NCBI GenBank assembly: GCA_903927025.1
Contig: CAIYLG010000053.1
Span: 62,001 to 126,000 of the forward strand
DNA length: 64,000 bases
DNA from: an uncultured Armatimonadota bacterium
GTDB taxonomy: Bacteria; Armatimonadota; Fimbriimonadia; Fimbriimonadales; Fimbriimonadaceae
Direction: 5' to 3'
In this document: in pieces, positions 5,017 to 27,546 of the stretch
How positions within the stretch are numbered: position 1 is the stretch's first letter
Layout: each line of letters starts with the position of its first letter
The notes under the pieces: generated by a model
Databases searched by the model: none
What the model was told of the DNA's origin: nothing
The model's input: only the letters and a program-made list of their open reading frames with translations
Translations under genes and position numbers: made by a program

Positions 5017-7381
5017 TTCCACTTGGAGTGAACGGGTTTGGTGTGACGAGAATTGTGTCGATTGCAACCTCAGAATTCCCCGCGCTTGAAACCATAAATC
5101 TCAACTTAGCTAGGTTTCCAGCGAGTCTCGTCGTTCCTAGTCGGTACCACCCAAATCCGCCGCCATACAAACTCAGCGGCTCCCCTCCGATTCGGAAGGT
5201 TTGACCGGAAAGGGTCACGACGACATCTCCTCGCCTCTCGGCCGGAATCTTTGCCGCAATCCAAACCTCTTGCTCCTCTCGAGTTTTTACGGGGACGTTG
5301 TAATCTGCAAAATATCCGCTGGTGCCAGGAAGCACCTGAGTTCTAAGCGATAGTGCGGCCCCTCCCGAGCAGCCTGCGGATGCGGTTACTTCGCTGAAGT
5401 TGTTCTCCACGCTGTGTTCGCCTTCGATCCAGCTATACGGAGCAACCCTTCCCGCCAGAATCCAATACTGCTTTCGCATGATATCGAAGCTCCCGCCTGG
5501 GTTTCGCTGAAATCCTCTAGCTGCCTCGTTGAAGCTCATCTCTTCTTGTCCGTTTTCCTTATGACTGCTTTCCGCCACTCTTAAAAGGAGTTCAAACCTC
5601 TGCATCGTTTCAAGGAGAGCTGCGTCCGGAACTGGAATTTCCTGCGTGTTGGAGATGATAAGTGGGAACTCACTGATGGATAGGGTGACGCTGTCCTTTT
5701 CGTACTTGGGCATTGGATCAGATCCGTCCATGGTTTGAAAGCGGACGGTCTTTGGGTTGTTCATTACCAAGCGATAGCGGCCTGGAATCTTTGCCCACAG
5801 CGCAAACGTGCCCTGGCTCAAACCCGAGCGATAGGCAAAGAATCCCGTGCCCAGGTCAATTCGGTTGCCATCGGATGGAGCGGGAAGCCACCAGTGGTCT
5901 CCCGGCAACCTTTGAGGAACGGCAGGGTTATAGGCGTTCTCGGGAAAGAACACAGGTTGGGGAGAGAAATTCATCGAGGAAGTATCGGCGTCCCTTGCCT
6001 TGCCTTCCTGAACTTGCGCCTTCATGAGCGCCGTAGATTCGGTCCGGACAAACACACCCCGGACTCCCATCGAGCTTAAGGCATCCAGTGCCGCCGTGTA
6101 CTGAGTCGAGCTTATCGCGCCGGTTCCGAGGTCGAAGTCGGTGGCGACCAGCCAACCATGAGTGTTCCATCGAAGCACGCTGCTTGCTGCTCGGCAACCA
6201 GAATCGGCAATCGCTGAAGGGCTGCTTCCAATTGCACGCATACCCACTCCATCAATTGAAGGATTGCTGACCTCGAATGGCGACTCCCAGCCTATCCAGT
6301 CCTGAATGATCGGTACGTTTGCTACGGACCTTATGGCGGGCACGAGTCGGGCAAACCGCCGCTCCTCCGCGCTGTTGATCACCTTGGTGATGTCATCCCA
6401 AATCTGACTTCTGCGGTTGTCGCATGGATACATCATGTTCGACACCGGATCTAGCAGGGAAGATACGCCCCGATTGGAAGACCACATTGGAACGAGTCGT
6501 GCCAGTTGGTCAAACGTGATGGTCAGCTTTTTCGTTTTGTCGTCGATCTCTGAGAGGTTGGAGCCAGAAACTGACCAGTTGCGCAACACCGTAACCACGC
6601 TGTGATACTTGTCCTCAAGGTACTTGGACAGTTCCATTTGAAAATAGGGGGAGATCGGAACGAACCGGCGCTGCTGGTTGACCGACCCAGGCGTTTTGCC
6701 CATAGGATTGATGATTCCACGGAGCCCTGCACCGAGTCCGTTTCGCTTCAGTGCCGCAAGGAGCGAATCGCGCTGCACATCCAAATCTCCCCAGAAGTCC
6801 TGCTGGTCGTAGCTCGTCATTTCCGGATAGACGAGCAAGACGTGCTCTACCTGAGGACCGAGCTTCACGTAGTAGCTCAGCTTTCCGTTGATCACTGGCA
6901 CCCGCTCGCCCTTATTTTGGGTCGCATCACTCTTTGAGGCAACGACTACGAAGGCGCTGGTTGCGCCAGGTAAATCCAGATCGACCTGGCGCGACTCGGT
7001 GATTCCTGTGATTCGGTAGCTTTGAGGCTCCACCGCGAAGCCATAAGCCATCGGTGCAAGCGAATTGACACGGACGAGATAGCGCATATTCGCCTTGCCG
7101 AGCGCCTCGATGACTTGAGACCAGCCAATTCCACTGGCTGGAAGATCCACGACAACGTCTGTAACTCCTGCGGCCTTCGCGGAGGCTACTGCTTCCGGAG
7201 TTCCATCAATTCGTATGCCGTAGGGAATATAAGGCTGACCTCCCCAGATAAGGGTTTGATGGTCGTTAATCGACCAAGACACCGGGCTTCCGGTTGCAGG
7301 TTTGTAGATTCCTTCTCGAAGCTGAGCGAACGCGGCACCCGCCACAAGCATCAGTGAAGCGGCAACAATGGTTCTCGACAC
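4931..7381 (-). CDS. Large exported protein, possibly a GH-A-type glycoside hydrolase with C-terminal beta domains
   Basis: An 816-residue protein with a clear signal peptide ([20 protein letters not shown]). The region around residues 50-430 alternates beta and alpha segments ([54 protein letters not shown]). [23 protein letters not shown] resembles clan GH-A enzymes such as GH42. No catalytic acid pair can be assigned with confidence. The C-terminal 350 residues look like beta-sandwich modules, and the tail is basic ([11 protein letters not shown]). The start is GTG, placed 7 nt after a TAGTCT box, so the transcript is probably leaderless. It is convergent with the dipeptidase gene and overlaps it by 86 nt. 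Confidence 0.6.
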
Positions 7382-15788: not shown

Positions 15789-16328
15789 ATGTTGATTGCA
15801 CTCACTTTAGCCTTACAGCTGGGAGCCCTTCTCTCAGATCAAGACCGTCAACTGATTGACTTAGCGAGGGCCACTGTCGAAGCAGAAGTTCTGGGTAAAC
15901 AGCCCCCTCCACTCAAAGGGAGACTAGATTCCCGAGCGGTTTTTGTTACGATTGAGGTGAACGGTCAAGTACGCGGGTGCCGAGGTTCGCTTACTCCGAT
16001 CACAGCCCACTTGGAGGGCGATGTTTCACATTTCGCCCGTGCGGCTGCGGCCCATGATCCGCGCTATAAACCGTTGAACTCCAAGGATCTTAAATCTTTC
16101 TTGGTTACCATCACCGTCGTCGAATCTATTCAGCCAATTTCAGCCGTGGATGTCCTCGCCCCCACCGATGGATTAGTACTCGCTTCCGGATCGAAAAAGG
16201 GAATTGTGCTTCCTTTTGAAGGCAGAGACCCCAGAACCCGGCTCCGTTGGGCCTATCAAAAAGCGGGTGTGTCTGAAGGCGCACCGGCAGAACTCTATCT
16301 TTTGCATGCAAGGAGAACTCGAGGATGA
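15789..16328 (+). CDS. Exported AMMECR1-domain protein
   Basis: A 179-residue protein with the AMMECR1 signature: FVTIEVNGQVRGCRGSLTPI, then AAAAHDPRYKPL and FLVTITVVESIQPIS, ending in LYLLHARR. The biochemical role of this family is not established. Unusually, the N-terminus (MLIALTLALQLGALLSD) looks like a signal peptide or anchor, whereas AMMECR1 proteins are generally thought to be cytoplasmic. An SD-like GAAGGA lies 2 nt before the ATG. An inverted repeat, TCAACCAC (15754-15761) with GTGGTTGA (15775-15782), lies directly upstream and could form a leader hairpin. The stop overlaps the next gene by 4 nt. Confidence 0.8.
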   Translation: MLIALTLALQLGALLSDQDRQLIDLARATVEAEVLGKQPPPLKGRLDSRAVFVTIEVNGQVRGCRGSLTPITAHLEGDVSHFARAAAAHDPRYKPLNSKDLKSFLVTITVVESIQPISAVDVLAPTDGLVLASGSKKGIVLPFEGRDPRTRLRWAYQKAGVSEGAPAELYLLHARRTRG

Positions 16329-19300
16329 TTCATCTAACGCTTTTGGCCGCTCTGACGATGTCAGGGGCCGCAACTCAGGAATCCGAGCTGCATGTCTGGG
16401 TATCCAACAACGTCGCCCCGAGTTCAAAGATCCGGCTCAACATCAACACTCGAAATTTACCATCCGTCCACGTTCAGTGCTCTCCAGTGGACGCCTTGAA
16501 GTGGGTCACCTTTCCAGAGGGCAAGGAAAAGCCAAAACCACGACCAACATCTCCGCCAATTCGGAAGTTCGATTTTAAAATTGCCTCTCCTGAGCAGGCG
16601 CTCAACCCAACTGACGACTACTTTTCAAGGCAGGTGAACCTCCCACCGATGCCTACTGGCTTCTACCTCCTGGAATTCAGCGCCGGGCAGAAGACCGATT
16701 GGACGGTTGTCAACATCACGAATCTATGCGTGGATATCCATCGGTCCCCAACAAAAACATTAGGTTGGGTAACTAACTTTAAGACAGGCATTCCAGTCTC
16801 CGGAGCTAAGGTTGGTCTTTATACAATGTCGGGTGTCTTCCAACAGGTCGGAGAGACACAACGGGACGGGACGGTACTCTTTCAGACTCCCCCAGGAACC
16901 AGCAATCTCGTTGTTAGAACTCGAGACGACATCGCCGCAATCGCCAACAGCGGTATCAATCCAAACGGTCGTCTGAAGTGTCTCTTTCAAACAGATCGGC
17001 CAATTTACCGACCCGGACAGACCATCTCCTATAAGGCGATTCTTCGTTTGACTCACGATCAGGATTACGACAGAGTGAGTCAGTCATCGGTCAAAGTGCA
17101 ACTCCGAGACCCCCGAGACAATCCCCTAGATGAAGTCACCTTGACCTCAAACAATATGGGATCCGTCGCGGGGTCATTTAAGATCCCCCAGGAAGGGATG
17201 CTGGGGGCCTACACCCTTGTGCTGACTGACTCAAAGAGCAAACAGTCTGCGTACCAGACGTTCACTGTAGCTGCCTATCGAAAGCCCGAGTACAAGGTGG
17301 ATGTCAAGGCAGTGAAGAAGAGGTACCTCGCGGGAGATGACATCCACTTCATCGTCGATACCTCCTACTATTTTGGGGCGCCCGTTCCACAAGCCCAGGT
17401 CCGCTGGGTGATTCGGAGGACTGACTCGCCGTATTCCTCGATCCAAGATGAGGACCGTTGGTTCTACGGTGGGGACGGAAACCTCTACCCAAGGGATACA
17501 TTCCGGAATTCTGCGGCGGCTGCAGATGGGGAAGCGATTACTGATATCAGCGGAAAAGCAGACATCCTGTTCCACACCGATCCTGAAGCAGGTGATTCGG
17601 CCTATTCGATCAGTCTGACTGTTACCGATTCGTCCCGCCGCCAGGTTTCTGCCAGCAGCGGCGTTCCGGTTTATGCGTCTGAACTCCGCATTTCTTTGGA
17701 GGCGCTCAAGCAAACGGTGGCGATTGGCGACTTAGTGCCGCTCCGGATCAAACTAGCAGACCTCGATGGCAAAGCATCCTCGGGAAAGGTCTCGCTACAA
17801 GAAACGACCGGAGTCTGGAGCGACTCGGAAGGGAGATGGAAACCCAAGATTCTCACCACCAAAGTCGTAAACGTTCCGATTAGCGGGAGCTCAATTGTCG
17901 CATTGCCAGCGCTTGCGATCGGGACCGTCGAGTTTTCAGCCACCATAAAGGATTCAACCGGGCGCAAGAGCTATGCGCTTGCGTCGGCTTACGTCGCCGG
18001 ACTGAGACTGGATCCAGTTCAACAGAAGACACCCTCTCCACAACTTGATCTCCGTTTAAACAAGCATGTCTTTATGCCCGGGGACACGGTGCGAACCTAT
18101 TCGACCACCAATAACCCTTCGATGCCGGTGCTCTGCATTCTGTCGGGTGGAGACCTTTGGAACTACAAGGTTGTCTATGCAAAGGATGGAATTGCCATGT
18201 GGGCTCCGCAGGTTGGAGTCCATCAATCTCCTAACGCGTACATCGAAACAGAGCAGTGGGTCCACGGGCAGATGCTCCACCGGACGGCTCTGGTACCGGT
18301 TCCGGATAAGTCTCGACTGCTGAACGTAGAAGTTCAGCCAGATCACGCCGAGTACAAGCCAGGCGACAAAGCGACCTACCGAATTCGAACGACCAATGAT
18401 CATGGGAAAGGAATTTCCGCAGAAGTCTCTCTAGCGGTTATAGACGAAGCGATCTACGCGATCAGCCAGGACATTACGCCAGACCCCTACAGCTACTACT
18501 GGGGAATCCGTGAGAACAACGTGCAGATGTTCCAGTCCGCACCTGAGGAATTGTCGGGCGGCGCGTTCCAAAATGTGAACAGCGTGGCTCCGGTGAGGCA
18601 GCGATTTGAAGACACGGCTTTCTGGCATGCCATGGTGAAGACCGATGCCGCGGGGCAGGCAAGCGTCAGCTTTGAGATGCCGGGCAACCTCACCAGTTGG
18701 CGCGCAACCGCACGTGCGATCACCGAAGATACTCGGGTCGGTTCGACCCGCACCTCCGTTACCGCGACCCGACCGGTGACGTTTCGACTGGCAACTCCCA
18801 GGGTGATCTCTCAGGGAGACGTCCTCACCCTCGTTGGCACCATCAACAATCGCTCTGGGCAGGCATACGACTTCGACGCGTCGCTTCAGGCAAAGGACGG
18901 CTTCGTATCGTCACCCGAAACTCAGCGCGTGAGAATCGCGGCTCACTCAGAAGGAGTTGTGAAGTGGATTTTGGCAGCCAAGACGGTTCCCACATCGGGA
19001 AGCATGACTCTAACGGGTCGAGTCCTATCCGAGGGAGCGTCAAACCCAGACCTTGGGGATGCACTTCAGGTCGCAGTTCCGGTGGTCCCACGTGGACTTA
19101 CCGAGTCCACCCTTTTGGCAGGAAGCGTCAGCCACGCCTCCACCGAGAAATTCAGCCTTCCGAGCAACACTTTGTCCAAAGCGTCCTATATTGAGGTCGT
19201 CATTGCGGGCGGTATGCAGGCGGCTTCCCGTGAGAGGGCTCAAAACCTACTGAACGGTGGAAGGTACGGAACCATGTGGGCTGTCAATGGCCTCAAAGCA

Positions 19301-20569
19301 GCCGTTGCCCTTGCTTTGGATACAAAGAACGATTCTGTCCGAGAGGCCCTTGCCTTACTGAGCAAAGACCAGGGCCCAAACGGATGGGGATGGTGGGAAG
19401 ACACTCCCGCTGACGCTAAGATCACGTCTGAGGTGGGCTACAGCCTCGCTCTTGCTGAACAAGCAGGAATCAGGATCTTCCCATCCCTCAAAAGCGCGGC
19501 CGTCAATACATGTGTTCATAACTATTTGGTGTCCAACCTTTGGGAAGATAAGGCAAGGCTGGCGGCATCTCTACTGTTGCTCGGCTCGGACAGAGGCAAA
19601 CCGTTTGCCGACGAGGTGCGACAGCGCGGCATCCACTTATCACCCTTTGCAACCCTTCGGTTATCTGAGGGATTTGCTTTGGTCGACAAGGAAGTGGCGA
19701 TTGAACTCCTCAAAGGTCAGCTTCATCTCGTCTCTAACGGACCCGCAACCGCGTACATACCGGTCGGCTTTGGGATTGGGTGGGATGCTTCAGAGACTTA
19801 CACTGCCGCCCAGTTGCTCGTAACTCTGCAGAATCTTGGGGCGGACTCCAAGCTCCAAACGAAGATCGCCAAGCGGCTCACCGGATCCGACTCGCACAAC
19901 TATTTGAGTTCCGAGGACGGGGCTGAAACTTCGTTGGCACTGTACCGGTACGGTCTTGATCATCAAGACGCCCGATCAATTGGCAAGGCCCAAGTTGAGA
20001 TCAATGGAAAGAGCTTTTCTCTTCAGCACTCAACCGTTGGAGAAACTGCATCGGTTGAAATTCGAGAGCCGGTGCTTCAACCGTCTGACAATTCAGTGTC
20101 CATTTCAAGAACGGGCGACGGGGAGGCTCTGTATACGGTTCGAGTTCGCTACTATCGATCGACCCTCGCGGAAACGGTTCGGGGCATTCGCGTCAACCGA
20201 AGATACGAACATCGGAATGAGGCGGGAGTCTGGACGGAAATCGATGGCCACGTCCTCCCCGGAGAGCCCGTGAGATGCACCGTGGTGATCTGGGGTGACG
20301 ACATCCCGGATGCGCTCAAAGTCACGGAACCATTGCCAGCAGGTTTCGAATTCGTCGACTCTGAGTACACTGCCCAAAGCCGAGAAGAGGTGAGGGATGG
20401 GGCGATCCTCCACTATCTGCTAAACCACGGCTCTCCTACCTTCTTTCGGTACTACTTGAGGGCAGAGTCTGACGGACAGCTCATTGCCTTGCCGGCTGTA
20501 GCAGAGTTCTTGAGGCGACCCGCTTCAAGGGGGAACAGCTCCTCGAATGAAATTAAGGTGAGCCAATGA
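16325..20569 (+). CDS. Alpha-2-macroglobulin family protein lacking the thioester motif
   Basis: A 1414-residue exported protein with signal peptide (MIHLTLLAALTMSGAATQ). MG-type beta domains are visible, including the bacterial A2M hallmark FQTDRPIYRPGQTISYKAI near residue 220 and the A2M central block DAAGQASVSFEMPGNLTSWRATARAIT near residues 775-800. A helical alpha-alpha toroid follows. Where typical bacterial A2Ms have YGCxEQ, this protein reads RYGTMWAVNGLK, so the thioester Cys and Gln are absent. It therefore cannot trap proteases covalently and may be a structural or binding protein. It sits between the AMMECR1 and thioredoxin-NodB genes with ATGA overlaps on both sides. No penicillin-binding protein 1C gene is near. 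Confidence 0.88.
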   Translation: MIHLTLLAALTMSGAATQESELHVWVSNNVAPSSKIRLNINTRNLPSVHVQCSPVDALKWVTFPEGKEKPKPRPTSPPIRKFDFKIASPEQALNPTDDYFSRQVNLPPMPTGFYLLEFSAGQKTDWTVVNITNLCVDIHRSPTKTLGWVTNFKTGIPVSGAKVGLYTMSGVFQQVGETQRDGTVLFQTPPGTSNLVVRTRDDIAAIANSGINPNGRLKCLFQTDRPIYRPGQTISYKAILRLTHDQDYDRVSQSSVKVQLRDPRDNPLDEVTLTSNNMGSVAGSFKIPQEGMLGAYTLVLTDSKSKQSAYQTFTVAAYRKPEYKVDVKAVKKRYLAGDDIHFIVDTSYYFGAPVPQAQVRWVIRRTDSPYSSIQDEDRWFYGGDGNLYPRDTFRNSAAAADGEAITDISGKADILFHTDPEAGDSAYSISLTVTDSSRRQVSASSGVPVYASELRISLEALKQTVAIGDLVPLRIKLADLDGKASSGKVSLQETTGVWSDSEGRWKPKILTTKVVNVPISGSSIVALPALAIGTVEFSATIKDSTGRKSYALASAYVAGLRLDPVQQKTPSPQLDLRLNKHVFMPGDTVRTYSTTNNPSMPVLCILSGGDLWNYKVVYAKDGIAMWAPQVGVHQSPNAYIETEQWVHGQMLHRTALVPVPDKSRLLNVEVQPDHAEYKPGDKATYRIRTTNDHGKGISAEVSLAVIDEAIYAISQDITPDPYSYYWGIRENNVQMFQSAPEELSGGAFQNVNSVAPVRQRFEDTAFWHAMVKTDAAGQASVSFEMPGNLTSWRATARAITEDTRVGSTRTSVTATRPVTFRLATPRVISQGDVLTLVGTINNRSGQAYDFDASLQAKDGFVSSPETQRVRIAAHSEGVVKWILAAKTVPTSGSMTLTGRVLSEGASNPDLGDALQVAVPVVPRGLTESTLLAGSVSHASTEKFSLPSNTLSKASYIEVVIAGGMQAASRERAQNLLNGGRYGTMWAVNGLKAAVALALDTKNDSVREALALLSKDQGPNGWGWWEDTPADAKITSEVGYSLALAEQAGIRIFPSLKSAAVNTCVHNYLVSNLWEDKARLAASLLLLGSDRGKPFADEVRQRGIHLSPFATLRLSEGFALVDKEVAIELLKGQLHLVSNGPATAYIPVGFGIGWDASETYTAAQLLVTLQNLGADSKLQTKIAKRLTGSDSHNYLSSEDGAETSLALYRYGLDHQDARSIGKAQVEINGKSFSLQHSTVGETASVEIREPVLQPSDNSVSISRTGDGEALYTVRVRYYRSTLAETVRGIRVNRRYEHRNEAGVWTEIDGHVLPGEPVRCTVVIWGDDIPDALKVTEPLPAGFEFVDSEYTAQSREEVRDGAILHYLLNHGSPTFFRYYLRAESDGQLIALPAVAEFLRRPASRGNSSSNEIKVSQ

Positions 20570-21534
20570 AGCGGGTGACCCTTGCATTGTTGCTGTCGCT
20601 CATCTTCCATTTCGCCAGTGCCGACCCGATGCTCGGGCACACCTGGCAAGCGTTTCAGATCTCAGCAAGGGATGGAAGTGTCAGAAGCTGGGAGCCGGGG
20701 CGGGTCACCGTGATCGCCTTCTGTGCTTACTGGTGCGACACTTGGAAGACTCAGCTGCCTCGATTGGCATCGGCAAGGGGCGCCTTACAAGGACTGCCCG
20801 TCGACTTTCTCTGTGTCAGCGTGGATGGGAGGTGGAGTGAGGTTGCGGATTCCAATCATGGATTACCACTCCTTTTAGACAAAGGTGGCGCTTGGTCAGG
20901 CGAGCATGGTGTCGACCGCGTTCCCACGACGGTTGTCTTGGATGAGAAAGGTTGCTGCTCCTTCGTTTCCGGAGCTGTTCTACGTTCCGAAGACGTCATA
21001 GACGCCGTTCATGGTGCCTTCAAGCATTCTAAATCCACCGGAACGGTGTATCTCACGTTTGATGACTTCCCCAGTAGTCATGGAGACCTGGAGTTGCTTG
21101 ATATCCTCAGAACCGAACAGGTCCCTGCAACCTTCTTCTGCATCTGCTCGAAACTCTCGGATAATCACGAGCTGGTGGCCAGGGCGGCTCAAGAAGGACA
21201 CTCTCTGCAAATCCATAGCTGGGACCACCATGCCGATCAGCCGAACCTAGAGCGCTGTCGCCAAGTTCTTCTGAGTCAATTCAATCTCCATGCTGCGCTC
21301 TACAGGCCGCCTGGCTCAGAGATGATTATCGGTGAGAACCGCCATCACCGAATCGTGAACCCGTACGACTATTCTCGCCCTTCGGAAAAGGAGCTCAAGC
21401 GCAGAATCTTGCTGGATATCGCCCCAGAAGCCGTGATCCAACTCCATGCCGGGGTTCTTGTCACTCAAGACTGCCTAGCCGAGCTAATCCGCGAGATTAA
21501 GGCTCGCGGATTCACTCTCGGAACTCTCCACTAG
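20566..21534 (+). CDS. Exported thioredoxin-like / NodB polysaccharide deacetylase fusion
   Basis: A 322-residue protein with signal peptide (MKRVTLALLLSLIFHFASA). Residues 25-150 resemble a TlpA-type thioredoxin fold (AYWCDTWKTQLPRLAS, then GVDRVPTTVVLDEKG). The redox motif is CDTW, so the resolving Cys is missing. Residues 160-322 form a NodB deacetylase domain: TFDD (164-167), HSWDHH (217-222), RPPG (247-250) and LHAG (293-296), the usual metal and catalytic motifs. The predicted role is removal of acyl groups from an envelope polysaccharide, with the first domain as a binding module. It overlaps the A2M gene by 4 nt and shares its CTAG stop with the convergent amidase gene. Confidence 0.85.
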   Translation: MKRVTLALLLSLIFHFASADPMLGHTWQAFQISARDGSVRSWEPGRVTVIAFCAYWCDTWKTQLPRLASARGALQGLPVDFLCVSVDGRWSEVADSNHGLPLLLDKGGAWSGEHGVDRVPTTVVLDEKGCCSFVSGAVLRSEDVIDAVHGAFKHSKSTGTVYLTFDDFPSSHGDLELLDILRTEQVPATFFCICSKLSDNHELVARAAQEGHSLQIHSWDHHADQPNLERCRQVLLSQFNLHAALYRPPGSEMIIGENRHHRIVNPYDYSRPSEKELKRRILLDIAPEAVIQLHAGVLVTQDCLAELIREIKARGFTLGTLH

Positions 21535-22892
21535 GGCACCGGGTGCTTCAAATGGAAATCGGTGACACGTTGGAAGTCCTTAGCTACCCGCAAGCACGTA
21601 TCCTCTCGCAGAGCAGGCGCAATGATTTGCCCGCCAATGGGCGCGCCATCCTCAAAGCCAATTGGAAACGCAATCGCCGGCCACCCTAGAAGATTGGAAG
21701 GGCCATTGTCACCACCCATGTTCACCCAGGTCTGATCAAACGGCAACTCGGCCGAAATTGCCTTGTGATAGAAGGACGGCGTGAAGATGCAGTCGCACTT
21801 CTCCCAAACTTCGTTTGCCCTCAGCGCCTCGGTTCGTATCCGCATGGCCCAGAGGTAGTCCACCGCTCGAATTTCCAGCGCTGCCGCGAAGCCAGCAACC
21901 TGATTGACGTCCTGGAGCTTCTGGAAGCGATCCCCGCGAATGAAGTTCTCGTGAGCACTGGCGCCCTCGGCTCCTACAATGATGTCAATGGCGGCGTTGT
22001 AAGGCAGGTCCGGATAGGCAATCTCTACTGTCTCGTAACCGAGCTTCCTCAACGCATCGAGGGCGCCATGGTAAGCCTTTTCGCATACTTCGGCCTTGCT
22101 GTCTTTGAAGGTCTCTTTGACAAGACCAATCTTCGGTTTCGGACCCGTCGCTCGCAGACTCAGCTTCTCCTTCAGAGAGGAGCCGTCTTTGACGTCATAT
22201 CCTGAAATCGCTTCAAGAACAAGCCCACAATCATCCGCCGAGCGACAGATGGGTCCGAGCTTGTCGAGAGTCCAGCACAGAGCCATCGCCCCGTGGCGAC
22301 TCACTCGCCCGTAGGTGGGTCGAAAGCCAGTGGCTCCGTTGAAGGCGGAAGGACAGACGATGCTGCCGCTTGTTTCGCTGCCCAGCGAGAATCCGACACA
22401 GCCAAGTGCCGTTGCGGCTCCAGAGCCAGAGCTGGATCCTCCTGCCCATAGCTTCTTGTCCCAAGCGCTAAGGCACGGCCCCATTCTGCTGGCATTGGCA
22501 ACGTTGTAGTTGCCGCCACCGGCCAACTCGATCATCTCCAGTTTGGCCACAAGAACGGCTCCTGCCGCTTCTAAGTGGTCGATCGAAGTTGCATTGTACG
22601 GAAACACCTGGTCTGCATGACCCGGCGAACCCCAGCGAGTTGGAATATCCTTGGTGGCGTAGAGGTCCTTTGCGCCATAGGGTATGCCATGAAGCGGCGA
22701 CTTAGCCTCGGTCGCGTCGGCTGCCTTAGCCTGCTTTAGCGCAAGTTCTTCCGTCAGTTCAGCGACGGCATTGTGCTCGTGGCCCAGCGTCTTGAGGCGC
22801 TTAAGATACATCTCGGTGAGTTCAACTGACGAAACCTCGCGCTTCTTTAGCGCTGAGGTCATTTCGCGAATGCTGGAGTAGGGTCCAATCAC
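21531..22892 (-). CDS. Amidase signature family protein (GatA-like)
   Basis: A 453-residue amidase. The Ser-cisSer-Lys triad is visible: Lys in HGIPYGAKDLYATKD, the Gly/Ser-rich GGSSSGSGAAT, and the nucleophile region GSETSGSIVCPSA. GatB and GatC genes are not nearby, so a stand-alone amidase acting on an unknown amide is more likely than the glutamyl-tRNA amidotransferase. I place the start at GTG 22892, which overlaps the stop of the upstream small gene (GTGA) behind a GAAGG-type ribosome site. An in-frame ATG at 22937 would add 15 residues inside that gene. Its stop overlaps the convergent deacetylase-fusion stop. Confidence 0.9.
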   Translation of the reverse strand: MIGPYSSIREMTSALKKREVSSVELTEMYLKRLKTLGHEHNAVAELTEELALKQAKAADATEAKSPLHGIPYGAKDLYATKDIPTRWGSPGHADQVFPYNATSIDHLEAAGAVLVAKLEMIELAGGGNYNVANASRMGPCLSAWDKKLWAGGSSSGSGAATALGCVGFSLGSETSGSIVCPSAFNGATGFRPTYGRVSRHGAMALCWTLDKLGPICRSADDCGLVLEAISGYDVKDGSSLKEKLSLRATGPKPKIGLVKETFKDSKAEVCEKAYHGALDALRKLGYETVEIAYPDLPYNAAIDIIVGAEGASAHENFIRGDRFQKLQDVNQVAGFAAALEIRAVDYLWAMRIRTEALRANEVWEKCDCIFTPSFYHKAISAELPFDQTWVNMGGDNGPSNLLGWPAIAFPIGFEDGAPIGGQIIAPALREDTCLRVAKDFQRVTDFHLKHPVP

Positions 22893-23179
22893 TTCTTCAC
22901 CTTCGCCTTTACCGGTGTCACCGAGTAGTTGAAGCAAGGCTCGCTGTTCTCCGGAAGCTTTGTTTTCAGGCGGTCAGAGGCAGCAGTTTGGACGCCTTTG
23001 AGGGATTCAGTAAGGAGTTTTTTAGCTTCAGGCGAGAGAGGAGAGGCAAGCTGCTTTTCGATATGGTCCAAGGGCACATCCTGCCCAGACTGGGCGGCTG
23101 AAAGAGAAGGGACGGCGAGAGAGGCCGCTCCCAATGCAGCGGCACTGATGATCTGTCGGCGAGTCGGCTGATCAGGCAT
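22889..23179 (-). CDS. Small Tat-exported protein upstream of the amidase
   Basis: A 96-residue protein beginning with a twin-arginine-like signal (PTRRQIISAAALGAASLAVPSLSAAQ). The rest (DHIEKQLASPLSPEAKKLLTESLKGVQTAASDRLKTKLPE) is helical. It is not recognised. It is translationally coupled to the amidase gene (GTGA overlap). A TATAAA box lies 5 nt before the ATG (23085-23090 read on plus as 23185-23190), so the transcript may be nearly leaderless. It is divergent from the first Clp N-domain gene, with only 47 nt between the start codons. A possible role is as an accessory subunit that carries the amidase across the membrane; that is inference. Confidence 0.7.
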   Translation of the reverse strand: MPDQPTRRQIISAAALGAASLAVPSLSAAQSGQDVPLDHIEKQLASPLSPEAKKLLTESLKGVQTAASDRLKTKLPENSEPCFNYSVTPVKAKVKK

Positions 23180-23213: not shown

Positions 23214-23219
23214 TACTAT
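23214..23219 (+). promoter_or_regulatory. -10 box TACTAT of a leaderless promoter (Clp N-domain gene 1)
   Basis: TACTAT sits 7 nt before the ATG at 23227, within a conserved box ACTCTGTCGTAC that recurs upstream of the third paralog. No ribosome site is present. Confidence 0.65.
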
Positions 23220-23226
23220 TTTTGCC

Positions 23227-23664
23227 ATGTGGCAACGGTTTACAGAAGCGGCGAGGCGAAGTGTCTTTCACGCGCAAGAAATCGCTCAAACGCATGGAGA
23301 AGGCTACGTCAGCACGGAGCACCTGCTTCTTGGAATTCTCCGCGACCCAGAAAATTTCGCCTCGAAGACTCTTCAACACATGGAGGTGGGTTTGGAGCAG
23401 TTCGCTGAAGAGATTTTGCAGACTCTGCCTCCACTTACGAATCCGCCTTCAGCCGGAATGACGCTCACCCCGCGTGCAAAATTGGCGATTGATTTGGCGT
23501 GGGAAGAATCCCAGAAACTCAATCAAAACTACATTGGCACCGAACATCTTCTGCTGGGTTTGATTTGTGAAGGAGATGGAGTGATCGCAATGTCACTCAG
23601 GAAAAAGGGAATTGAACTTGAGCAAGCACGGATGGCCGTTCAACAGACTGTAAGCGCGAATTGA
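23227..23664 (+). CDS. Clp N-domain-only protein 1 (one double Clp_N domain)
   Basis: A 145-residue protein consisting of the two-repeat N-terminal domain of ClpC/ClpA: MWQRFTEAARRSVFHAQEIAQ, GYVSTEHLLLGILRD, then LTPRAKLAIDLAWEESQKLNQNYIGTEHLLLGLI. There is no AAA+ module. In Clp ATPases this domain binds adaptors and substrates; ClpS and McsB act through it. A free N-domain could compete for or deliver substrates to a ClpC encoded elsewhere. It is followed by two longer paralogs, all starting MWQ. Transcription is probably leaderless. Confidence 0.88.
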   Translation: MWQRFTEAARRSVFHAQEIAQTHGEGYVSTEHLLLGILRDPENFASKTLQHMEVGLEQFAEEILQTLPPLTNPPSAGMTLTPRAKLAIDLAWEESQKLNQNYIGTEHLLLGLICEGDGVIAMSLRKKGIELEQARMAVQQTVSAN

Positions 23665-23767
23665 GGCTGCGTATAAACCGGCGTGAAAAATCTGCAGCAT
23701 TGAACTTGACCGGCGCTAGTCGATTTCTGACGCCAGCGACTTAGCCCAAACGACCGCAGTCATGTCG

Positions 23768-23773
23768 TACCAT
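23768..23773 (+). promoter_or_regulatory. -10 box TACCAT of a leaderless promoter (Clp N-domain gene 2)
   Basis: TACCAT within TGTCGTACCAT, 6 nt before the ATG at 23780. It shares TGTCGTAC with the other two paralogs. Confidence 0.6.
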
Positions 23774-23779
23774 TACGGC

Positions 23780-25156
23780 ATGTGGCAGATGTTTACGGGA
23801 CCGGCTCGTGCAGCCGTCTTCGATGCACAAAAGGTTGCTGAGGAGTTAGGACAAAGTTATATTGCTCCAGAGCACTTTCTGCTCGCTCTTGTGAGAATGA
23901 GGGATACGAACGCACTAACTGCACTGATTCAAATGGGCTTTGTGGTTGAAGATGTCGAGAAGGAAATCCTCAAACAATTTCCGTCGAAGAAGCAAAAACT
24001 TGAGGCCGACAGGACTCTCACTCCACGTTCAAGGCAAGCGATCGACTTCGCCTATGATGAGGCTCGCAAATTCGGTCATTGCTATATCGGCACTGATCAC
24101 CTCCTTCTCGGGCTACTCCGGGAGCGAGGCAACTTCGCAGGCGGGGTGCTGAAGAAGCTTGGAATGGACCTCCACCGGTGTCGGGATATCGTCCGTGGGC
24201 TGAGCAAAGAGAACAGTGTCGAAAGGGAATCTGATGACGCGACATACAGCTTCGATCAGCGATATTCCCGAACTGCGCGGAAGGTTATCAGGCGGGCCAT
24301 GTTTGCTGCTTCGGACGAGGGCCAAAAGCTTGTGGACACCGAGTTCTTGCTAATGAGCATCATTTCCGAGGAGGATCACTCTGCAGCCAAAGTCTTAGCC
24401 CATTTGAATGTTGATGTGGAGCAAATCAAGCTGAGAATTGTTGAAACATCCACCGCGAGCGAGAGCGCGACAGAATCACAAGTGCGCTTTTCACCCGCAA
24501 CACATTCGGCAATCCGTCTGGCGATTGAGGAGGCAACCCTCATGGGACATGACCGCGCTGGAACAGTGCATCTGCTCATGGGTCTCGTGCGCGAAGAAGC
24601 GGGCCGAGCCGCCCAGATTCTTCGCTGGTGCAATTTAGACACGACGAAAATACGTGAAGCGTTCGAAGCAATGAATCTCGACACTTCAGATGAGAATCGG
24701 GGGCCCTATCAAGAAGACCTTGATGAAGCAAAAGTGCGGTTCGCGAAGATCACTCGGGTGCATCTTGAACGGCAGCTGTCAGTTCAATCCGATCTCCTAT
24801 GCATCGGTCTCCTGAGAGAGGGAGCGACGCTACAATCTGCCTTGGTCGACCTCTCCCTCGATAAAGAGACCGTAGCTTTAGCTGTTTACAGTGCAGTTCT
24901 GGCTAGCCGCCGAAGTCAAACGGCAGAGAATTCGTCAATCACATTTGCAGACCTCTTGGCCAGGGCGAAGACAGAAGCTAAGGAGCTTAGGCAGGACTTC
25001 GACGAGCCTCACTTCCTTTTGGCGATGCTCCGGAATGGTAATACCGCTACGGCGAGAGCTCTCCAAGCAAATGGCATCACTTATGAGAACCTGAGAGACT
25101 GGGTCGCACTCAACCTTCCTAGCCAAGGGCACATCGACGAGCGCAATCCAGGTTAA
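23780..25156 (+). CDS. Clp N-domain-only protein 2 (six Clp_N repeats)
   Basis: A 458-residue protein made of about six Clp_N repeats, i.e. three double domains in a row. Repeat landmarks are MWQMFTGPARAAVFDAQ...APEHFLLALVRM, LTPRSRQAIDFAYDEA...GTDHLLLGLLRE, RTARKVIRRAMFAA...DTEFLLMSII, FSPATHSAIRLAIEEA...GTVHLLMGLVRE, a weaker fifth, and FADLLARAKTEAKEL...DEPHFLLAMLR. No Walker motifs are present. I chose ATG 23780 and not the in-frame ATG at 23762, because the paralogs also begin MWQ and a -10 box lies 6 nt upstream. Possible functions are a multivalent substrate or adaptor scaffold for a Clp protease; this is not demonstrated. Confidence 0.85.
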   Translation: MWQMFTGPARAAVFDAQKVAEELGQSYIAPEHFLLALVRMRDTNALTALIQMGFVVEDVEKEILKQFPSKKQKLEADRTLTPRSRQAIDFAYDEARKFGHCYIGTDHLLLGLLRERGNFAGGVLKKLGMDLHRCRDIVRGLSKENSVERESDDATYSFDQRYSRTARKVIRRAMFAASDEGQKLVDTEFLLMSIISEEDHSAAKVLAHLNVDVEQIKLRIVETSTASESATESQVRFSPATHSAIRLAIEEATLMGHDRAGTVHLLMGLVREEAGRAAQILRWCNLDTTKIREAFEAMNLDTSDENRGPYQEDLDEAKVRFAKITRVHLERQLSVQSDLLCIGLLREGATLQSALVDLSLDKETVALAVYSAVLASRRSQTAENSSITFADLLARAKTEAKELRQDFDEPHFLLAMLRNGNTATARALQANGITYENLRDWVALNLPSQGHIDERNPG

Positions 25157-25220
25157 GGAATCGTGAGTGGTGCTGGACTTTTCGGTCTGACCCCTCGATA
25201 TCCATTGCTCGACTCTGTCG

Positions 25221-25226
25221 TACACT
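25221..25226 (+). promoter_or_regulatory. -10 box TACACT of a leaderless promoter (Clp N-domain gene 3)
   Basis: TACACT lies 7 nt before the ATG at 25234. The upstream sequence ACTCTGTCGTAC and the following TTTT and CCATGTGGCAACGG match gene 1 closely. Confidence 0.65.
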
Positions 25227-25233
25227 TTTTCCC

Positions 25234-26151
25234 ATGTGGCAACGGTTTACGGAAGGGGCGAGGAAAGTTGTGTTTAACGCGCAGGAAGCTGCTCAGCGTG
25301 CCGGGGAGCCTTACGTCAGCACGGAGCATCTGTTGGTGGGTCTCGTGAGAGATCGTGAAAATGACGCATCAAGGGTGCTTCGAGCCATCAGTCTTGCACC
25401 CGAAGACGTTGAGATCGAAATCTCAAAGCACTTGCCCAATGATGGTCAAAAAAAGAGGACCTCAGACATGACGCTGACACCAAGAGCGAAAAGAGTGATT
25501 GACTTAGCGTATGACGAAGCGCGCAACCTGAGCAACAACTACATTGGCACGGAACATCTGTTGCTCGGCCTCATCCGCGAGGGAGACGGGCTGGCAGGAA
25601 GAGTGCTTGACAACATGGGAGCCTCACTGGAAATCACCCGCAAGGCGGTGATGGCAGTGCAGAAATCTAAGGGCCAAACAGCCACCGATTCCGTTAAACC
25701 CGCCTCCTCGAACCATGATCCAGCGCAGACATCGCAAACTCCCAACTTCCGCGCCCTCAGCTCACACTCGGCAGTATTGACCTTGGCTAGACTCACGGGA
25801 ACGATGACGGGAGACCACCTCTGCGTTATGCTTCTGTGCGAAGATGCCACGACGGCTCAGGCACTTACCTCTTTCGGTGGAAACACCAACGCGATTGTCA
25901 GCATGATTCGGGACAGGATCTTGCAGCCAAAGACGGCTGAAGAACTCGCCGAGGGCTTTATCAGTGCCTCAGAGCTGATTCCTCTTGCCGCGGCTGAAGC
26001 CGAAGCTTGTCAGCAAGAGCTGCATCCACTTCACTTCCTCCTTGCTGCCGCGAGTTCTGGGAAGTCGGTGACAGCGATCGCACTCAGGGCTGCGGGCATC
26101 ACCTATGAGAAATTGAAGAGCTACCTGTTGCCCGACGCAACGGAGCCTTAA
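25234..26151 (+). CDS. Clp N-domain-only protein 3 (four Clp_N repeats)
   Basis: A 305-residue protein with four Clp_N repeats. The first double domain (MWQRFTEGARKVVFNAQEAAQ...STEHLLVGLVRD and LTPRAKRVIDLAYDEARNL...GTEHLLLGLIRE) is close to bacterial ClpC. A Ser/Thr/Pro linker and a second, diverged double domain follow, ending ELHPLHFLLAAASSG and ITYEKLKSYLLP. No ATPase module is present. The second domain resembles the last part of paralog 2 (ITYENLRDWVALNLP), so the family grew by duplication and fusion of units. The stop overlaps that of the convergent glycosyltransferase gene (TTAA). Confidence 0.87.
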   Translation: MWQRFTEGARKVVFNAQEAAQRAGEPYVSTEHLLVGLVRDRENDASRVLRAISLAPEDVEIEISKHLPNDGQKKRTSDMTLTPRAKRVIDLAYDEARNLSNNYIGTEHLLLGLIREGDGLAGRVLDNMGASLEITRKAVMAVQKSKGQTATDSVKPASSNHDPAQTSQTPNFRALSSHSAVLTLARLTGTMTGDHLCVMLLCEDATTAQALTSFGGNTNAIVSMIRDRILQPKTAEELAEGFISASELIPLAAAEAEACQQELHPLHFLLAAASSGKSVTAIALRAAGITYEKLKSYLLPDATEP

Positions 26152-27533
26152 AGACCGAGCTCTTCCTTTTCCTCTTCTTCTTCCTCGACAATCGAAGTAA
26201 GTGACGGCAGGGAAGTCGAAATCCGTGGCCGGGGACGTTCGATGATGGCGCCGTCGACGGCTTTCTCTTCGAGACGAAGGCGTTTGGCACGGTCTTCTGC
26301 GCCGGGCGAGACTGGCCAAACGGTATTTTGAGCCCAGTAGCTGTTGAGGAACTCGTTCCAAACGCGATCATAAACACCGATGGTCTGATTTGCCAAGTGC
26401 GACCAGTCGAAGTCTGTCTTTAGCCGTATTCGGGCCTTCACCGACATATCTTCAGCCCGCTTTGGATGATTGAGGACGTCTAGGACGGCCCAAGCAAGCG
26501 ACTCCGGATTGTTGGCATAGCTAAGGGTGCCCGTCTCGCCATGAATAACGACTTCGCGAAGTCCGCCCGCGTCAGACGCAACCACCGGCGCACCTGCTGC
26601 CATTCCTTCCAGGGCGACGATTCCAAACGGTTCATAAAGGGAAGGGAAGACTGCCACGTCTGCAACTCTGTACAGCTGGTGCAGAGAGCGGTTTGCCATG
26701 AAGCCGGTGAACAGAACCTTGTCCTGAAGACCCGCCCAATGCACAAACTTCTCAAATCGCTCCCGATTGCCGCCACCGACGATCAGGAACTTGGTGTTGG
26801 GCTCCTGAGCAAGAATGACGCTGGCTGCGTTGAGAAGCACGTGGATGCCCTTCTCCCGCACAAAACGGCCCACGTACATTACAATCTTTTCGTTGGGAAG
26901 GGCAAGCTTGGCACGATGTGCGGCGCGCTCGGCTTCAGTCCATTCAAATTCAAACTTCTCGGGCTCAACGCCGTTGTAGATCACGTCGATCTTGTCGGCA
27001 GGAGAGTTGAAGAGGCGGACAACCTCCTCCTTCATGAACTCAGAACAGACAATCACGCGCCACGCTTCGTAGGTTAGCCAGTACTCCTGCTCATGGATGT
27101 ACTTGCTGGTCTCATTGAAAATCCCGCCGTGACGACCTGATTCGGTGGCGTGAATGGTTGCCACAAGCGGAAGCTTGTATTCGTACTTCAGCTCGCGCGC
27201 AGAGTCGAGGCTCAGCCAGTCATGGGCATGGAAAACGGTTGGCTGACCACCTGGGCGCCAATCCTCAAGTAGCTGGCGGACGCGTCGATCCGTTGCCTGG
27301 TTAAGGAGCTGAATCTCGTGGAGAAAATCATTGGGCTGATCTGCCAGGTGAACTCGGTGAATCTGCACTCCACTCGGTTCAACTTCCTCATCAGGAGCAA
27401 GGGGAGTGTGCTTGGTGACGACGTGAACTTCGATCCCCTTCTGTTGAAGCTGGAAGGACAAGTCCTTCACATGAGGGCTGATCCCTCCTACGATTCGAGG
27501 CGGGTACTCCCACGACAGCATGATCACGCGCAT
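26148..27533 (-). CDS. GT4 family glycosyltransferase (glycogen synthase-like)
   Basis: A 461-residue GT-B enzyme. The N-terminal donor/acceptor loop is MLSWEYPPRIVGGISPHVKDL, typical of bacterial GT4/GT5-like synthases. The C-terminal domain has VGRFVREKGIHVLLNA and the E-x7-E motif in PSLYEPFGIVALEGMAAGAPVVAS. It probably transfers a hexose from a nucleotide sugar to a glucan or other glycan; the exact product is unknown. The C-terminus is unusual, ending in a poly-Glu stretch (VEEEEEEKEELGL). I chose ATG 27533 because a perfect TATAAT lies 7 nt before it. The ATG at 27542 overlaps that box and cannot be on the transcript. Confidence 0.9.
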   Translation of the reverse strand: MRVIMLSWEYPPRIVGGISPHVKDLSFQLQQKGIEVHVVTKHTPLAPDEEVEPSGVQIHRVHLADQPNDFLHEIQLLNQATDRRVRQLLEDWRPGGQPTVFHAHDWLSLDSARELKYEYKLPLVATIHATESGRHGGIFNETSKYIHEQEYWLTYEAWRVIVCSEFMKEEVVRLFNSPADKIDVIYNGVEPEKFEFEWTEAERAAHRAKLALPNEKIVMYVGRFVREKGIHVLLNAASVILAQEPNTKFLIVGGGNRERFEKFVHWAGLQDKVLFTGFMANRSLHQLYRVADVAVFPSLYEPFGIVALEGMAAGAPVVASDAGGLREVVIHGETGTLSYANNPESLAWAVLDVLNHPKRAEDMSVKARIRLKTDFDWSHLANQTIGVYDRVWNEFLNSYWAQNTVWPVSPGAEDRAKRLRLEEKAVDGAIIERPRPRISTSLPSLTSIVEEEEEEKEELGL

Positions 27534-27540
27534 CAATCGC

Positions 27541-27546
27541 ATTATA
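27541..27546 (-). promoter_or_regulatory. -10 box TATAAT of a leaderless promoter (GT4 gene)
   Basis: A consensus TATAAT on the minus strand, 7 nt before the ATG at 27533. There is no room for a ribosome site. Confidence 0.65.

Follow-up and report, generated by a model that had tools for sequence, protein, structure and literature searches.

The unfoldase ClpC, with its two AAA+ modules, is restrained via its N-terminal domain (NTD), and several anti-tuberculosis peptides target that domain. As described in a 2025 study of ClpC (PMC12583610), Glu106 and Glu32 belong to the two phosphoarginine pockets, with Thr7 in the first; Lys85 contacts AAA1, Arg9 is salt-bridged to the M-domain of the neighbouring subunit's side, and Arg122 lies at the base of the own M-domain; Glu32, Glu106 and Lys85 are needed for the resting state of ClpC. 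Mycobacterial ClpC2 is a partial homologue of ClpC1 in which a single NTD follows a non-homologous front part that dimerises and binds DNA; by sequestration it keeps an antibiotic that binds the NTD away from ClpC1 (PMC10030653). ClpC2 already shows in mycobacteria that a protease can be tuned through a copy of its receptor part. A natural family of free NTDs, in tandem and of varied domain number, would illustrate such tuning by cells or phages and would amount to ready ClpC inhibitors, sponges or adaptors. In plants, ClpT1 and ClpT2 bind the ClpPR core ring, and we know of no multi-NTD forms of ClpT. Our literature searches, with most subscription journals outside their reach, found neither multi-NTD forms nor an NTD-only family of Armatimonadota described; for stand-alone or tandem Clp N-domain proteins they yielded ClpC2 and plant Clp systems, and no multi-NTD protein was recognised among them.

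We analyzed a stretch of 64,000 nucleotides, hereafter the window, from an uncultured bacterium of the family Fimbriimonadaceae (Armatimonadota). Three adjacent forward-strand genes encode proteins of 145 aa (gene 1, 23227-23664), 458 aa (gene 2, 23780-25156) and 305 aa (gene 3, 25234-26151). The longest reading frame of gene 2 spans 23762-25156 (464 aa), with an MWQ start 18 bases inside it, at 23780; if translation begins there, all three proteins start with MWQ, as a first-pass annotation of this DNA had stated. In Pfam, Clp_N (PF02861) is the sole family above cut-off in proteins 1, 2 and 3 (E-values of 4.5e-28, 7.7e-45 and 2e-35; scores of 97.6, 151.3 and 121.1 bits against a curated cut-off of 20.7). 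The same search of all three proteins detected no AAA+ family, and they lack the two AAA+ modules of a ClpC unfoldase; the central claim of the first-pass annotation, that the three are built from Clp_N alone and carry no ATPase, is therefore borne out. The annotation had also counted 2, 6 and 4 repeats. A half-repeat profile made in this analysis recovers exactly these numbers, whereas Pfam finds 2, 5 and 3 individually significant motifs, plus one weak motif in each of proteins 2 and 3. The half-repeats beyond the Pfam count are degenerate motifs, the weak profile stretches scoring 2 bits in protein 2 and 2 and 4 bits in protein 3. Since one ClpC NTD contains two Clp_N motifs, the count amounts to 1, 3 and 2 NTDs: a single ClpC-type NTD in protein 1, three NTD-like domains in protein 2, and one good and one degenerate NTD in protein 3.

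Protein 3, modelled from a 15-row alignment with a mean pLDDT of 85.4, has two consecutive eight-helix domains in the prediction, at residues 1-145 and 177-298, which makes four repeats credible in this protein. Its closest structural counterparts are NTDs of ClpC, among them structures in complex with MecA, with phosphoarginine and with peptides that bind the NTD. In protein 2, the first NTD and residues from about 330 to 450 are modelled well, and residues 146-329, where the alignment is poor, lie mostly below pLDDT 50. Pfam, the half-repeat profile and the protein 3 model together exclude chance or mis-annotation as the source of the Clp_N repeats.

The suggested likeness to the ClpC N-domain holds as well: along its full length, gene 1 aligns with ClpC NTDs of solved structure, with a best E-value of 5.4e-32. 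The NTD of the host's own ClpC, which has the same fold and an MWQRF start, is the likely parent of the NTD-only proteins; ClpC differs in continuing into AAA+ modules and in evolving much more slowly. With ClpC2, whose structures 8ad9 and 8b9o match gene 1 at 1.2e-18 and 1.1e-16, the window proteins share a ClpC-type NTD without AAA+ and, as we propose, competition with ClpC for NTD ligands. ClpC2 places a front part before its single NTD; in the window proteins the NTD comes first, and there are three NTDs in protein 2 and two in protein 3. Gene 1, with two motifs in one NTD of 145 aa, also agrees with the stand-alone double Clp-N fold of plant ClpT. Like the window proteins, ClpT has Clp_N motifs only; ClpT is far more distant in sequence than ClpC, and 4y0b, which we take to be plant ClpT1, matches gene 1 weakly (E 4.2e-5).

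We tentatively read the three proteins as free ClpC NTDs in competition with ClpC over ligands, a reading to which we give slightly less than an even chance. NTD-only proteins would derive from clpC, severed from its ATPase, and would bind in solution the ligands of the ClpC NTD, be they clients that are unfolded or marked by phosphoarginine, adaptor proteins, or NTD-directed peptides. They would thereby compete with or buffer ClpCP, possibly to the benefit of the cell. Binding would fall to the first NTD; later NTDs would have drifted away and may now act in assembly or on different partners.

The host genome (5.25 Mb) contains 14 Clp_N matches, two in ClpC (832 aa, contig C38), two in ClpB (875 aa, contig C22) and ten in the three window genes; two ClpP and two adjacent ClpS are also encoded. 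That an intact clpC lies on another contig, and that other genomes have genes at the same site, excludes the possibility that the three reading frames are pieces of a broken clpC. The search for clpC, clpS and mcsB recommended with the first-pass annotation thus found the first two, together with a divergent mcsB-like gene (one copy, 5894-6928 of locus L144, contig C62). No McsA is recognisable beside the latter. The encoded kinase falls below all five NCBIfam arginine-kinase cut-offs listed, and has serine at the position of a conserved cysteine of aligned McsB, presumably the catalytic residue. Because the kinase is divergent and under these cut-offs, phosphoarginine may not be the ligand of the free NTDs. 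An McsB relative was found in 81 of 85 family genomes by a search without a positive control, the 14 control genomes having given no match. Across the 85 genomes, presence of the kinase does not separate those with NTD-only genes from those without, which we count against competition by free NTDs.

The three genes lie between an amidase-like gene (21531-22937) and a glycosyltransferase-like gene (26148-27542), both on the reverse strand and both named by eye. The order amidase (reverse), NTD-only (forward), glycosyltransferase (reverse) is common to the window, with three NTD-only genes, and to genomes G020 and G058, with two each; G058 belongs to another genus. In G007 the glycosyltransferase side is kept beside one NTD-only gene, G018 and G021 have one such gene near the amidase, past an extra gene, and in G022 two long NTD-only genes adjoin the amidase. 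Hence both gene number and domain number vary at a single site. A small reading frame with a Tat-like signal (22889-23179, reverse strand) overlaps the start of the amidase gene; as similar frames precede the amidase in L126 and L131, it represents a second gene and not a frameshift. Elsewhere in the window, on the forward strand, 16325-20569 encodes a secreted-looking protein of 1414 aa, alpha-2-macroglobulin-like by eye, followed at 20566-21534 by a gene with the look of a thioredoxin plus polysaccharide deacetylase.

NTD-only genes, often in tandem, occur in at least 22 of the 85 family genomes, with protein 2 as query and the reading frames checked; this is a lower bound, as the search missed strongly diverged G022 proteins of 444 and 456 aa that were found later. 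Outside the window we collected 33 distinct AAA-less frames, including one clpC fragment (L094), and the majority start with MWQ. Their products range from about 145 aa (one NTD) through about 260-305 aa (an NTD plus a degenerate NTD) up to three NTDs, and a 493-aa protein of G022 has six significant Clp_N motifs. In genus g1, the nine genomes that reach 4.0 Mb all have NTD-only genes, and the 11 smaller ones have none. Family-wide they are likewise found mainly in larger genomes (Mann-Whitney p 4e-7, uncorrected for shared ancestry). Plasmid matches to gene 3 are mostly annotated as full Clp ATPases, and some as 'Clp protease N-terminal domain-containing protein'. Of note, a contig titled Methanoregulaceae archaeon (L063) encodes a Fimbriimonadaceae-like ClpC, so that this bin is probably contaminated.

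In several loci an NTD-only gene lies just 5' of clpC on the same strand (L085, L045, L101 with three genes, L103, L109/L183 and L182), and in L098 one lies upstream of clpC across a gap of about 0.9 kb. In L182 and L183, from other families of Armatimonadota, the genes directly upstream of clpC encode 1.5 NTDs (three half-repeats). Such positions would suit regulators or adaptors acting in trans: free NTDs would take the place of ClpC's own NTD by docking on its M-domain or AAA1, with activation, repression or the delivery of clients as the outcome. Furthermore, the adaptor-like phage protein SPO1 Gp53, though not an established NTD, modulates ClpCP (PMC6873191). Most NTD-only genes, however, the three of the window included, are located away from clpC, and we regard regulation in trans as somewhat unlikely.

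NTD-only genes diverge fast while their reading frames stay open. Between the window and G020, the glycosyltransferases are 91% identical, the amidases 80% and an MBL-type neighbour 60%, whereas the best identities of proteins 1-3 among the two NTD-only proteins of G020 are 43, 41 and 40%. Over the 14 closest pairs, pN is 0.16-0.27 and pS 0.69-0.87 in the first NTD, and pN is 0.39-0.59 and pS 0.65-0.83 in the remainder of the protein. Synonymous sites are near saturation, and we therefore used the pN/pS contrast alone and no dN/dS; the first NTD, whose pN lies well under pS, is under constraint. We may also hypothesize that the genes are by-products of repeated partial clpC duplications, decaying slowly with no selected function. 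The high pN after the first NTD and the long branches of NTD-only sequences in a tree would agree with such decay, as would locus L184, where a frame-broken copy, left out of the NTD-only set, adjoins a frame-broken clpC. The low pN of the first NTD despite near-saturated synonymous sites argues against it, as do syntenic copies in another genus, and we consider decay without function very improbable.

In the quick tree just mentioned, ClpC sequences sit on very short branches, and the long NTD-only branches meet; strong support is confined to 4 of 105 inner branches. The NTD-only sequences of L103 and L085 each group, at low support, with the adjoining ClpC, which speaks for more than one origin, and six changes of state are needed, three of them forced by supported branches. 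More than one origin is likely on these sequence relationships. The highest identity to a ClpC is 68% (gene 3 against the ClpC of L045). Two L033 (G050) frames are omitted from NTD alignments and tree, and L118 is replaced by its duplicate L130; L113/L143, whose AAA label came from a chance Walker-like string, figure as ClpC in the tree and as NTD-only in the residue counts. L094/L152 are left out as broken clpC, with an NTD identical to that of another ClpC.

The residues kept in first NTDs are unevenly distributed over the known ClpC contacts. Counting the ClpC residues across 34 first NTDs, we find Glu106 in 31, Glu32 in 28 (three more have Asp), Lys85 in 27, Arg122 in 20, Thr7 in 19 (Ser in 11 more) and Arg9 in 13. 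We ranked retention over 35 polar positions invariant in 71 ClpC sequences, an invariance partly due to selection, since the patterns that selected ClpC rows hold conserved motifs: Glu106 ranks 5th, Glu32 10th, Lys85 12th, Arg122 26th, Thr7 27th and Arg9 last. With three motif-pattern finds removed, the counts in 31 rows are 28 for Glu106, 25 for Glu32, 24 for Lys85 and 10 for Arg9, which is again last. Retention thus patterned is a further point against functionless by-products. Glu32 and Glu106 have a second role in the ClpC resting state, so finding them retained is compatible with ligand binding as well as with docking on ClpC; regulation in trans gains from the fact that all three residues which PMC12583610 assigns to that state are largely kept. 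Lys85, the AAA1 contact, being mostly kept also counts against competition by free NTDs. Regulation in trans is at odds with the state of Arg9, the bridge to the neighbouring M-domain and the least kept polar position. The loss of Arg9 appears to tip the balance towards free binding, not decisively. A decoy role, one of those suggested in the first-pass annotation, would fit the first-NTD residues, the Arg9 loss and the ClpC2 precedent.

A special case of the competition we favour would have defence as the selected function: exactly as ClpC2 does, the free NTDs would soak up peptide antibiotics or other toxins directed at the NTD of ClpC. Trp3, Leu80, Lys85 and Asp89, which sit at ClpC1 positions singled out in papers on cyclic peptides, are kept in 97, 91, 79 and 91% of the 34 first NTDs, and fast divergence at a conserved site, tandem expansion and presence mainly in larger genomes would be in keeping with defence. 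The residues are nevertheless unlike the cyclomarin contacts of ClpC2, Phe2, Phe80 and Glu89 in ClpC1 numbering (PMC10030653), where first NTDs here mostly have Trp, Leu and Asp. In addition, the window proteins have no ClpC2-style DNA-binding front part and no toxin is known for these hosts, which leaves selected defence improbable.

The first-pass annotation took the growth in repeat number as selection for multivalent binding, an idea that our data support poorly. We examined 22 multi-domain proteins. In 18 of them a His motif can be recognised in a later domain, and 14 of the 18 lack the Glu before it; this Glu is kept in G043, in G028, at one of two motifs in G022y and at all four EH motifs in G022z. 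Since later domains mostly lack the pocket glutamates, repeat growth has probably not supplied extra copies of one site. The 493-aa G022 protein with six significant motifs, whose four later EH motifs keep Glu, is a counter-example. In the model of protein 3, the second domain adopts its fold despite lacking this Glu, which is therefore not required for the fold.

Upstream of each window gene we observed a -10-like box on the forward strand: TACTAT (23214-23219) and TACACT (25221-25226), each 7 nt 5' of the ATG of genes 1 and 3, and TACCAT (23768-23773), 6 nt 5' of the MWQ start of gene 2. These TANNNT boxes 6-7 nt before the ATG suggest leaderless-type starts. A box 5-9 nt upstream is found at 12 of 31 NTD-only starts and 1 of 80 clpC starts (counts that omit L033, L118, replaced by L130, L085, L127 and L094), against a mean of 2.0 and a highest value of 7 in 1000 shuffles. 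Other reading frames of the same loci also have the box, at 19 of 97 starts, so that it indicates a general start type and no special mark of NTD-only genes. NTD-only genes are probably transcribed apart from clpC. We count these separate starts, unlike those of clpC, in favor of free competing NTDs; own promoter-like boxes also speak against by-products.

In a viral collection, some contigs of which may be cellular, we found 61 loci with a relative. By a crude Walker-A screen, 46 viral Clp_N-bearing reading frames are AAA-less, 17 have AAA and one lies at an edge. Among 36 distinct AAA-less viral NTDs, Glu32 is present in 35 and Glu106 in 34, counts biased by scan patterns that included the Glu motif, and Arg9 and Lys85 in 31 each. 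Retention of Arg9 in 31 of 36 viral NTDs, unlike the bacterial ones, counts against free competition. On the whole, free competing NTDs would account for several features at once: a pocket that is kept, an M-domain bridge that is lost, expression apart from clpC, rapid change, and adoption by phages. A broader and more speculative proposal, which we think unlikely to hold in full, is that Armatimonadota keep an evolving reservoir of free NTDs, repeatedly made from clpC, as ligand decoys in trans, and that phages have adopted this device against the ClpCP of their hosts; new decoys would arise and diversify at the tandem site, with later domains freed for new partners.

Our literature search on phage proteins of the NTD-only kind recognised no multi-NTD protein. 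Among the viral cases, those from the isolated phages Myrna and Phabba are firm. The window proteins match the profile of phrog_35667, which includes Mycobacterium phage Myrna gp251, with E-values of 6.4e-29 to 1.5e-37. The likeness is that of a single AAA-less NTD; the differences are that phrog_35667 is a phage gene with one NTD and an actinobacterial-type MFERF start. Myrna gp251 (L249, 2971-3678) has 235 aa and two Clp_N motifs, and otherwise nothing in Pfam. Phage Phabba SEA_PHABBA_260 (L250, 2501-3166) is annotated 'Clp family protein, ATPase domain', which is contradicted by its length of 221 aa and by the Walker-A screen. The AAA-less NTD protein of these phages is a possible modulator of host ClpC1. 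Myrna and Phabba are both isolated mycobacteriophages, and their AAA-less NTD proteins are annotated as Clp ATPase or ATP protease.
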